A DNA stretch of 64,000 nucleotides from Terriglobus sp. RCC_193. Its GTDB lineage: Bacteria > Acidobacteriota > Terriglobia > Terriglobales > Acidobacteriaceae. The stretch is taken from assembly GCF_041355105.1 (NCBI RefSeq), contig NZ_JBFUPK010000003.1:152245-216244 (forward strand), in the 5' to 3' direction. The position numbers were made by a program, and so were the translations under genes. Below are positions 2,950 to 63,897 of the stretch, in pieces (position 1 is the stretch's first letter; each line of letters begins with the position of its first letter). Under the pieces are notes generated by a model. It saw only the letters and a list, made by a program, of their open reading frames with translations. It searched no databases and had not been told where the DNA came from.

Positions 2950-3072
2950 CGGAAACTACCCGTTGCTTCTCCTGCACATTTGTAACCCGTCGCGTACCGG
3001 TGGCTTCTACCCTGCTCGCGACCAAGCCGTAAACGCGTAGTCGTTCACGATTGAATCGAAAAGGACAAGAAC

Positions 3073-3507
3073 ATGGCACCGAAGAAAATTACTGGATACG
3101 TCAAACTCCAGGTGATGGCCGGCAAGGCCACTCCCGCTCCGCCGATCGGCCCCGCGCTCGGTCAGGCGCAGGTCAACATCATGGAGTTCTGCAAGCAGTT
3201 CAACGACCGCACCAAGGACCCGTCGATGGCGGGCCTCACCATCCCGGTCGTCATCAGCGTGTATGCAGACCGTACCTTCTCCTTCATCACCAAGACGCCT
3301 CCGGCTCCGGTGCTCCTGAAGAAGGCTGCCAAGATCGAAAAGGGTTCCGGCACGCCGAACAAGGCGAAGGTCGGCACCGTGACCGAAGCTCAGGTGCGCG
3401 AGATCGCCACCCAGAAGATGCCCGACCTGAACGCAGCGACCGTTGAAGCCGCAATTAAGATGATCAAGGGCACCGCCCGCTCCATGGGCCTCGACGTAGT
3501 CGCCTAA
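3073..3507 (+). CDS. rplK: 50S ribosomal protein L11
   Basis: L11 is part of the GTPase-associated centre of the large subunit and binds 23S rRNA with L10. The 144-residue protein shows the N-terminal signature [20 protein letters not shown] and the rRNA-binding C-terminal domain ending [35 protein letters not shown] precedes the ATG. In most genomes rplA, rplJ and rplL follow directly. Here a strong terminator follows the stop by 21 bases and the next gene is unrelated, so the L11 operon is broken after rplK. Confidence 0.98.
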
Positions 3508-41156: not shown

Positions 41157-42356
41157 ATGAAGATTCACGAGTACCAGGCGAAAGAGATCCTGCGGAAATA
41201 CGGCGTCCCCGTCCCCGAAGGCGAAATGGTCACCACGCTGGAAGAGGCCGACCGCGCAGCCAAGGGCCTGTTTGACGCGGGCAACCCCGTCGTTGTGGTC
41301 AAGGCGCAGATTCACGCAGGCGGTCGCGGCAAGGGCGGCGGCGTGAAGGTCACCAAGAACATCGACGCAGCCAACGAGGCGTCCAAGGCCATCCTCGGTA
41401 TGCAGCTCATCACGCACCAGACCGGCCCCCAGGGCCAGAAGGTGCAGCGCCTGCTCATCGAACAGGGTTCCGCTATCGACCGCGAACTCTATCTCGGCGT
41501 CACGCTGGATCGCGGCAACGGCAAGCTCACCTTCATGGCATCGCGTGAAGGCGGCATGGAGATTGAAGAAGTCGCGCACGAGAATCCGGACGCCATCTAC
41601 AAGGAAGCCATCGAGCCCGCGCTCGGCCTCCAACCCTGGCAGGCACGCAATCTCGCATTCAAGCTCGGCCTCGAAGGCTCGCAGATCAACCAGGCCGTCA
41701 GCTTCATGATGGGTCTGTACAAGGCCTACGTGGAAACGGATTGCTCGCTGCTTGAGATCAACCCGTTCGTCACCACCAAGGACGGCAAGCTGCTCGCGCT
41801 CGATTGCAAGATCAACTTCGACGACAATGCGATGTTCCGTCACAAGGACCTGAAGGAACTCCGCGACATCAGCGAAGAAGACCCGCTTGAAGTGGAAGCC
41901 AGCAAGGACTCGCTGAACTACATCCGCCTCGACGGCTCCATTGCCTGCATGGTGAACGGCGCTGGTCTCGCGATGGCGACGATGGACATCATCCAGTACA
42001 GCGGCGGCTCGCCTGCCAACTTCCTCGACGTAGGTGGCGGCGCAAACCAGCAGCAGATTGAAGCAGCCTTCGCCATCCTGCTCGCCGACCCGAACGTGAA
42101 GGCGATCTTCATCAACATCTTCGGCGGCATCCTGCGCGTGGACGTACTGGCAACCGCAGTCGTCGCAGCAGCGCGCAATCTGAATGTCACGCTTCCTCTC
42201 ATCCTTCGTCTCGAAGGCACCAACGTCGAAGAAGGCCGCAAAATCCTTGCGGAGTCCGGCCTGAAGTATGCGGTAGGAGCGACGATGGCAGAAGCTGCAA
42301 AGCTGGCCGTGGAGGCAGCTCAGGGAACAGGGAACAGGGAACAGGGAACAGTGTGA
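41157..42356 (+). CDS. sucC: Succinyl-CoA synthetase (ADP/GDP-forming) beta subunit, C-terminal tail rewritten
   Basis: The beta subunit binds the nucleotide and, with SucD, converts succinyl-CoA to succinate with phosphorylation of ADP or GDP. The 399-residue protein begins [20 protein letters not shown]. It has the ATP-grasp region [40 protein letters not shown], the [11 protein letters not shown] phosphate site and the C-terminal [11 protein letters not shown]. Its last eleven or so residues, [11 protein letters not shown], are coded by four copies of the heptamer GGGAACA (42323-42350). The natural C terminus has therefore been replaced by the edge of the inserted cassette. The core fold is intact, so activity is probably kept. 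Confidence 0.95.
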
Positions 42357-42744
42357 TTGGCGAATCCTATCGGGATCTCATCGTTTGGCAGAGAGCAGTC
42401 CAACTGAGCGTTGCTCTCTACAAGCTGACGGCGACATTTCCGAGGGAAGAGCTTTACGGCTTAACGAGCCAACTCCGGCGTGCCGGGGTGTCAGTAGCAA
42501 GCAATATCGCAGAAGGTTACGGTCGCAGGTCAACGGGAGAGTACAAGCAATTTCTCGGCATGGCTCGCGGGTCCAATATGGAAGTTCAAACGCAGTTGGT
42601 GATTGCAGGAGAGTTAGGTTTCGGAGACCCAGTGAAGTTCAAGGAATCAGAGTCACTCTCGCACGAAGTCGGAAAAATGCTCGTAGCGATGATGAACAAG
42701 ATTTAGCCTCGAACCCTGTTCCCTGTTCCCTGTTCCCTGTTCCC
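42323..42744. mobile_element. Heptamer-flanked four-helix-bundle cassette between sucC and sucD
   Basis: Four exact tandem copies of GGGAACA (42323-42350) are mirrored by four exact copies of TGTTCCC (42717-42744). The enclosed 366 bases hold one gene of the four-helix-bundle (S23/IVS) family and nothing else. The unit splits sucC from sucD, which are adjacent in most bacteria; the normal sucD ribosome site starts straight after the right array. The structure has the form of a small mobile element with tandem-heptamer inverted ends. No transposase is present and no target duplication can be defined. Confidence 0.7.
42353..42706 (+). CDS. Four-helix-bundle protein (S23/23S rRNA intervening-sequence family, Avd-like)
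   Basis: The 117-residue basic helical protein has the family start [20 protein letters not shown] and then [40 protein letters not shown] and [20 protein letters not shown] follow. Relatives form pentamers; some are encoded in 23S rRNA intervening sequences, and Avd accompanies diversity-generating retroelements and binds nucleic acid. The GTG start at 42353 overlaps the sucC stop (GTGA), and AGGG from the heptamer array lies upstream, so translation is coupled to sucC. The family call is firm; what the protein does here is unknown. Confidence 0.92.
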
Positions 42745-42763
42745 TCTGCTGAGGAGAACGAAG

Positions 42764-43636
<873 letters not shown>

Positions 43637-63452: not shown

Positions 63453-63662
63453 ATGGACGGACCTGGATCACAGCAGCGAATGTACGTCGCGCTTGGGGTG
63501 ATCGCAATCGCCGCCATTGGAATCGGGCTCACCATGGAACCCGGAAAATACCGGAGCCTTGCGTGGGTGTTATTAGGGTTTTTCGCGTTTCGTGTGCTCT
63601 TGGGCAGGCAAAGCGCAGTTCGAAGAGGGCGCAACCAACGGCCTTCAACGAAGCAGGGCTGA
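63453..63662 (+). CDS. Small two-span membrane protein, unknown
   Basis: The product is 69 residues with two hydrophobic spans (VALGVIAIAAIGIGLTM and WVLLGFFAFRVLLGR) joined by a charged EPGKYRS turn and a basic tail. GGAAG lies just upstream of ATG at 63453; ATG at 63447 is the alternative. It sits between tRNA-Tyr and tRNA-Thr(GGT), and its stop TGA lies inside the first bases of the latter. The layout is that of a real small membrane protein, but no family is recognised and it may be an artefact of a tRNA spacer. Confidence 0.5.
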   Translation: MDGPGSQQRMYVALGVIAIAAIGIGLTMEPGKYRSLAWVLLGFFAFRVLLGRQSAVRRGRNQRPSTKQG

Positions 63663-63732
63663 TGTAGCTCAGTGGCAGAGCACTCCCTTGGTAAGGGAGA
63701 GGTCGAGGGTTCAATCCCCTCCATCAGCTCCA
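63658..63732 (+). tRNA. trnT: tRNA-Thr (anticodon GGT)
   Basis: The acceptor stem GCTGATG/CATCAGC, D arm GCTCAGTGGCAGAGC, anticodon loop TTGGTAA (anticodon GGT) and T arm AGGGTTCAATCCCCT are present, with CCA encoded. It overlaps the 3' end of the upstream small open frame by five bases. Confidence 0.96.
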
Positions 63733-63740
63733 TAGTTTCA

Positions 63741-63818
63741 AGCTATTAGCTATTGGCTATTAGCTTTTAGCTGGCAACAAGTTAGCTAGAAGCTAACGGC
63801 TAAGAGCTAACAGCTTTA
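63741..63818. repeat. Inverted heptamer array without a gene
   Basis: Left side: tandem units AGCTATT, AGCTATT, GGCTATT, AGCTTTT and AGCTGG (63741-63774). Right side, read on the opposite strand: AGCTGTT, AGCTCTT, AGCCGTT, AGCTTCT and AGCTAAC (63781-63818). Only six bases (CAACAA) separate the two. The design matches the GGGAACA arrays around the sucC-sucD cassette but holds no gene. It lies between tRNA-Thr and tRNA-Gly. Confidence 0.8.
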
Positions 63819-63822
63819 AGGC

Positions 63823-63897
63823 GCGGGAGTAACTCAGTGGTAGAGTCACAGCCTTCCAAGCTGTTGGTCGCGGGTTCGATCCCCGTCTCCCGCTCCA
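63823..63897 (+). tRNA. trnG: tRNA-Gly (anticodon TCC)
   Basis: The acceptor stem GCGGGAG/CTCCCGC, a D arm containing ACTCAGTGGTAGAGT, anticodon loop CTTCCAA (anticodon TCC) and T arm CGGGTTCGATCCCCG are present, with CCA encoded. It starts five bases after the inverted heptamer array. Confidence 0.96.

Follow-up and report, generated by a model that had tools for sequence, protein, structure and literature searches.

A compact arm-gene-arm unit of about 430 bp, made up of one S23-family gene between two inverted terminal arrays of tandem heptamers, separates sucC from sucD in Terriglobus sp. RCC_193. Judged from sequence comparison, it is in our view an even call whether this unit is a selfish element similar to the intervening sequences (IVSs) of 23S rRNA genes but located outside rRNA, with arms that dock the S23 pentamer. 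Across the genomes compared, the unit is present or absent at individual sites and is found again at other positions in the genomes of related lineages, and the constant part common to both of its arms is an AG every 7 nt, commonly repeated five times. The window, by which we mean the whole 64,000-nt stretch of DNA that was analysed, belongs to a genome of 4.2 Mb in nine contigs (G000), and its relevant features are collected in Table 1.

Table 1 Coordinates of the S23 element, its neighbouring genes and a gene-less array pair in the window
Feature	Position (nt)	Strand	Evidence
sucC (succinyl-CoA ligase, ADP-forming, beta subunit)	41157..42356	+	ORF; ATP-grasp_2 and Ligase_CoA
Left arm, tandem heptamer AGGGAAC	42321..42351	+	five AGs at 7-nt spacing, 42322-42351
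S23 / 23S_rRNA_IVP / TIGR02436 four-helix-bundle gene	42353..42706	+	ORF; Pfam, NCBIfam
Right arm, inverted array copy	42714..42745	-	five AGs at 7-nt spacing, minus strand, 42716-42745
sucD (succinyl-CoA ligase alpha subunit)	42764..43636	+	ORF; CoA_binding and Ligase_CoA
Gene-less inverted AGCTATT/AGCTAAC-type heptamer runs	63741..63815		TRF 63741-63772 and 63791-63815; pairing by eye

An earlier note, made from the letters of this DNA, had described eight heptamer units around an S23/IVS-family gene. All eight are exact, with four GGGAACA units on the plus strand (42323–42350) and four on the minus strand (TGTTCCC, 42717–42744), and the enclosed protein matches PF05635 at 1e-36 and TIGR02436 at 2.5e-35 (Pfam and NCBIfam profiles). 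Both arrays were called by TRF with 100% match and, having at least four tandem 7-nt units, count as heptanucleotide simple-sequence repeats; single GGGAACA matches in the window number 18, compared with a mean of 7.04 and a maximum of 13 in 100 shuffles. The complementary arms extend over 39 nt each (42316–42354 and 42713–42751), with 92% complementarity and 358 nt between them, and the S23-family ORF thus sits between complementary ends as in an IVS. The site itself is between sucC and sucD and not inside a 23S rRNA gene, the proteins on either side being recognisable as SucC and SucD by their Pfam domains. The inner ORF (117 aa) begins with a GTG that overlaps the sucC stop TGA (42354–42356), so that the last residues of sucC are encoded by the left array, while the right array is followed by AGGAGAACGAAG and then the ATG of sucD. 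These ORF coordinates agree with what the same note had said of both edges, namely the overlap of the GTG with the stop, the use of the left array as the last codons of sucC, and a right array that stops short of the sucD start region. Judged by position, the left array may also provide the ribosome site of the S23 gene, as that note had stated.

Comparison of the sucC–sucD junction among relatives, suggested in the earlier note as a check, revealed that the gene is far from constant at this site. Among the 30 nearest sucC junctions (100 genomes searched), 7 contained an S23 gene, 2 held other DNA and 21 were empty, their gaps measuring about 80 nt at most. A clean empty site (GCTGCAAAGGGAGGCAAG-TAATGGCA) was found in congener G031, which has a SucC segment of 99% identity and no S23 match in its genome; read by eye, the same junction in congener G148 carries a different S23 gene (64% identity) flanked by AGCTTTT repeats (arm score 24). 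On a 46-row tree, sucCD occupancy amounts to three changes, one gain and two losses being permitted.

A second line of evidence comes from G128, where two S23 copies (87% protein and 77% DNA identity) match over the whole stretch between the outer edges of their two arms, and the flanks beyond the arms are unrelated and give no other match; 48 nt between the left arm and the gene are present in one copy only. As the match ends at the outer arm edges, inverted terminal repeats bound the moving unit in the manner of an insertion sequence. Inspection by eye of the G128 pair and of the sucCD empty site showed no target-site duplication. In one genus, two loci (L052 and L054) share their neighbours, an M48 peptidase and an AAA ATPase, between which the S23 gene has opposite orientations; this pair alone was counted as an in-place inversion. 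Differences in orientation at the YchF-type junction (L046, L050 and L066 versus L064 and L070) were left out of this count, the S23 genes there falling into two clades with one flank rearranged. The nearest relatives of the window S23 in the set, L103 (67%) and L104 (64%), are both located elsewhere, L103 after an M50 peptidase, and their units, AGTGAAC and AGAGAAC, are each one letter away from the AGGGAAC of the window. Between different junctions, the mean unit difference (of 7) fell with rising S23 identity from 3.76 (803 pairs, <40%) through 3.60 and 3.29 to 2.23 (43 pairs, at least 60%), and since similar S23 genes at different junctions have closer units, the unit tends to follow the gene and not the site. 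Several S23 junctions are common to more than one genus, implying that movement is slow or the insertions are old. Two related S23 elements with different units lie 2.3 kb apart on a single contig of another genome (L188 and L044; G120:C64, 23572 and 25935), perhaps as a local copy. Taken together, these comparisons support mobility of the arm-gene-arm unit, and the proposal that the window contains a compact mobile element with tandem-heptamer inverted ends probably stands, in view of the empty site in G031 and the G128 match that stops at the arms.

Inverted tandem flanks turned out to be usual for S23-family genes elsewhere; neither of the two outcomes that the earlier note had named as refuting its proposal was thus observed. 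The window's genome has three S23 genes, and the remaining two are likewise enclosed by inverted short tandem repeats of other sequences, one after pheS with octamers of the AGCGAGTC type, and one after a phosphorylase-family gene with 8-9-mers of the AACGAGAGC type; the gene following the L002 element has no Pfam match on its 132 residues and was assigned as pheT by eye. S23 genes were present in 112 of 150 family genomes. Arms, defined as a flank reverse-complement match above the 95th percentile of mispaired flanks, were detected at 31/32 family loci (the three from the window's genome plus the best-scoring among a longer set of matches), at 57/75 cross-phylum loci with enough flank (from the best 80 of at least 594 stretches in an 84,980-species collection, 5 of the 80 being dropped for short flanks), and at 21/27 distinct viral-contig loci (34 before the removal of 7 near-copies). 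According to record titles, the arm-bearing cross-phylum loci belong to Proteobacteria or their genera, Bacteroidota, cyanobacteria, Clostridia, Planctomycetes and candidate phyla, with a single archaeal locus from Methanophagales. With 34 viral loci, and 30 of 72,556 plasmid records, most S23 elements appear to be on neither, and carriage by phages or plasmids was rejected as the main mode.

At a fixed score, 96/138 S23 loci passed compared with 1/255 control stretches of equal geometry taken from elsewhere in those loci, which rules out a chance origin of the arms, with the reservation that many S23 loci have a junction in common and the counts are not independent. The score is sensitive to where the end of the gene is placed (L065 scored 52 in one scoring and 24 in another); a score of 30 was reached by 6/8 rescored loci, and L304 scored 24 despite AGCTTTT repeats evident by eye. 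Similarly, an S23 gene located after carA in Xanthomonas codiaei (L145) has visible inverted GGGGACC repeats, yet was scored as a miss. The same locus (771-855, 2960-3420) has a 12-unit GACTCCC/GAATCCC array some 2 kb off, resembling published GGGAATC arrays. Another 18 loci with weak arms gave no rRNA matches, and a location within 23S rRNA was rejected for those 18.

Dissection of the arms by periodicity identified AG at 7-nt spacing as the commonest periodic dinucleotide over 107 loci. Runs of at least four AGs at this spacing occurred in 59/107 5' arms and, on the other strand, in 52/107 3' arms, against 2/208 control windows, and were absent from about half of the arms (48 and 55 of 107, respectively). 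The run counts in 5' arms concentrated at five (n = 32), followed by four (n = 13), six (n = 6), seven (n = 4) and longer (n = 4). In a larger set, exactly five AGs were present in 66/140 qualifying arms, the remaining five positions of the unit being free. The two arms of a locus agree in unit, with a mean difference of 0.96 of 7 (55 loci) versus 3.63 for mispaired arms, while the S23 elements examined in G025, G109 and G120 mostly differ in unit within each genome. Some clades or elements have a spacing of 8 or 15 nt, and in some CGG replaces AG. Stop codons in all frames were considered as a cause of the period of seven, and this candidate proved weak, with a T before the AG in 60/140 arm consensuses.

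The elements fit closely between host genes. Both neighbours were found for 85 of them, 55 lying between co-directional genes, 21 before an opposite-strand gene and 9 otherwise. The median distance between the end of the upstream gene and the start of the left arm is 2 nt (quartiles -8 to 3), and that between the end of the right arm and the following gene is 5 nt (-2 to 16). Among the neighbours that Pfam confirmed are two tRNA synthetases, the carbamoyl-phosphate synthase small chain, DprA, a topoisomerase, ornithine/aspartate carbamoyltransferase and an acyltransferase. Such a flush fit would be expected if the insertions that survive are harmless ones in short gaps.

The related crystal entries 2gsc and 2rld have five chains each, and the available text of PMC4990558 describes a Xanthomonas protein as a toroidal homopentamer. 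S23 dN/dS was about 0.05–0.10 in 5/11 pairs (dS below 2), dS being saturated in the other pairs; judged from its codons, the protein is subject to purifying selection. The window element contains no transposase or recombinase, and the Pfam/NCBIfam matches of its gene are solely S23-family and bAvd-like. A reverse transcriptase (RT) acting in trans was rejected as a partner, the two genes showing no association across the family genomes (S23+RT+ 54, S23+RT- 58, S23-RT+ 14, S23-RT- 24; Fisher p = 0.26). No RT lies beside the window S23 gene, the neighbours of which are only sucC and sucD, and the one RT of the genome is on another contig. This sole RVT_1 match (C2:1211863-1212501) is about 430 nt from a GGGAACA array (L038, C2:1211396-1211430), which is located in a repeat of ~250 nt with many copies in both G000 and G031.

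Arrays also occur without a gene. The inverted pair at 63741–63815 of the window, which has a short loop and five-AG runs on the minus strand, lies between tRNA-Thr (63658-63732) and tRNA-Gly (63823-63897) and apparently represents the same kind of ends minus the gene. Its unit resembles those of sucCD S23 elements in other genera (AGCTATT in L101). G000 has eight additional GGGAACA arrays, one of them containing a mismatch, and eight additional places with AGTCAGCR arrays. Among the eight extra GGGAACA arrays, an inverted partner was clear in one case (L036, score 43), weak in another (L039, score 24) and lacking in six. L039 (G000:C3:28245) is also the longest GGGAACA array, with 12 units, beside a stretch of N and with a single inverted unit beyond it. 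By eye, L261 looks like another gene-less inverted pair, and the downstream flank of a Chloroploca S23 element (L129) has a two-direction cluster of AGGTGTC-type arrays, the unit type of that element. Outside S23 genes, 53 AG/CT runs of five were seen, and a Markov null over 560 kb gave 0.

Three tandem GGGAACA units were found in 6/150 family genomes, with 33 matches in G000 and 8 in G148. Three tandem AGTGGTT units occurred in both genomes with an S23 gene of that unit (11 and 7 matches, one of the two having only its own arms); the other ten genomes gave 1 match in one and none in nine. Six array sites of G000 were sought in G031, where the array was absent at two, degenerate at one, related at one, unclear at one and part of a many-copy repeat at one. 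In the related case (L041, G000:C2:1173015), a GGGAACA-type array occupies the start of a coding region and its counterpart in G031 is a related but different array, indicating that arrays can change in place. Counts of AGTCAGCR and S23 matches, respectively, were 17/3 (G000), 30/2 (G148), 11/1 (G152), 1/1 (G151), 0/1 (G095) and 0/3 (G128) in S23-bearing genomes of the genus, and 16/0 (G150), 19/0 (G153), 6/0 (G154, 70% complete), 4/0 (G031) and 0/0 (G155) in S23-free ones. Because AGTCAGCR arrays abound in S23-free congeners, orphan arrays do not depend on an S23 gene in the same genome; either they are relics or they can spread by a second route. This is the strongest point against a simple picture of an element plus its dependents.

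Other accounts of the same data deserve weighing. The element could be an mRNA version of the 23S IVS, in which a stem formed by the two arms within the polycistronic transcript is cut by RNase III, S23 binds the leader of its own message and selection maintains the complementarity of the RNA. Long complementary ends around an S23 ORF are indeed found in the Coxiella IVS (available text of PMC4990558), and the 55/85 elements between co-directional genes would suit such a role, whereas 24/85 have an other-strand neighbour to the right or left, a non-operon arrangement. Arm mismatches in the sense RNA showed no excess of G-U over A-C (84 vs 98, p = 0.34, 97 loci), which counts against RNA pairing being what is conserved, although exchange between the arms could mask such a bias, and AG was kept no better in the 5' arm (59 vs 48, p = 0.33). 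We regard this account as unlikely. A quite unlikely account, in our estimate, is that the arrays are host simple-sequence repeats spreading on their own by slippage and recombination, with S23 as a passenger that prefers arrays or recombines between them. The many unpaired arrays, abundant also in S23-free congeners, are what this would predict, as are the degenerate or related arrays that the congener has in place at the L040 and L041 sites. Against it, S23 genes that are 50–60% identical at the same junction have units as different as random ones (3.48 of 7, 25 pairs), whereas units are shared between different junctions when the S23 genes are similar (the 43 pairs above), the arms around the gene are inverted and not direct, and the G128 copies bring their own arms along.

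It is also conceivable, and to us very improbable, that S23 is a domesticated regulator that binds arrays in many transcripts, the scattered arrays marking its regulon and the arms serving as sites of autoregulation. Purifying selection on S23 and the occurrence of AGTGGTT arrays in 2/12 genomes, those whose S23 has an AGTGGTT unit, with none in 9, would be expected of a regulator; the wealth of AGTCAGCR arrays in congeners without an S23 match, the alternation of occupied and empty sucCD sites among relatives, and the lack of any function common to array-bearing genes that is visible by eye would not.

For the favoured reading of a selfish IVS-like element, we envisage the following course of events. 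Each arm would serve as a docking track for one S23 homopentamer, with one AG per subunit and a step of about 7 nt; the docked rings may mark or join both ends, and host or foreign factors might then cut, join or copy the element. Insertions would persist where they are flush between the stop and the start of neighbouring genes. A docking track would explain why AG and its spacing are kept while the other letters drift, as well as the same polarity of both arms toward the gene, and docking of a pentamer would explain five as the commonest AG count. More tentatively, as something possible rather than probable, S23 elements may form a class of mobile DNA of their own, very widely spread and characterised by one ring protein together with a pair of inverted (AGN5)5 docking arrays in which the other letters can drift. 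The S23 IVS of 23S rRNA would then be its rRNA branch, many unexplained heptanucleotide arrays would be its orphan or gene-less ends, and the number seven would be the step of the S23 ring.

S23 genes, IVSs and heptamer arrays are linked by a single rule, namely about five AGs at 7-nt intervals, in inverted orientation on the two sides of an S23 gene, and to our knowledge heptamer arrays have no accepted origin. If the rule is right, many annotations as 'four helix bundle protein' or 'S23 ribosomal protein' would refer to genes of mobile elements, and the recurrence of the unit in many bacterial groups points to a widespread, overlooked class of very small mobile element. We recognised no description of such elements in the open-access literature of PubMed Central, subscription papers and preprints being outside this scope, and their novelty in print is accordingly provisional.

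Among known systems, insertion sequences and MITEs have inverted ends, empty sites, copies at multiple sites and gene-less pairs; S23 elements differ from them in having no transposase and in ends that are sequence-variable tandem heptamers. Avd of diversity-generating retroelements belongs to the same fold superfamily as S23 and is pentameric, but the window S23 has no adjacent RT and its bAvd Pfam score (22.4) is below the cut-off of 40. The RNA-binding ring TRAP reads one spaced AG-bearing triplet per subunit with 11 subunits; it is an analogy of mechanism only, given its unrelated fold, different subunit number and shorter spacing. Published heptanucleotide arrays, GGGAATC in Xanthomonas with 70 and 75 inverted pairs (PMC4692102) and TAACTGA (PMC4679880), are 7-nt tandem, intergenic and partly in inverted pairs like the arms of the window element, while the available texts of both papers link no gene to them and do not contain the terms S23, four helix or intervening. 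The closest counterpart is the S23 IVS of 23S rRNA, for example in Coxiella burnetii. There, in the available text of PMC4990558, RNase III excises the IVS, tandem GACAGAT heptamers in strain-dependent number precede the S23 ORF, and it is described as unclear what S23 genes and intervening sequences do and where they come from. The window element and the Coxiella IVS, as described in the same text, have in common the S23 ORF, a length of ~430 nt, complementary ends and AG-bearing tandem heptamers before the ORF, the IVS being called selfish; the IVS lies within rRNA and is removed by RNase III, whereas the window element lies between protein genes and has arrays on both sides.
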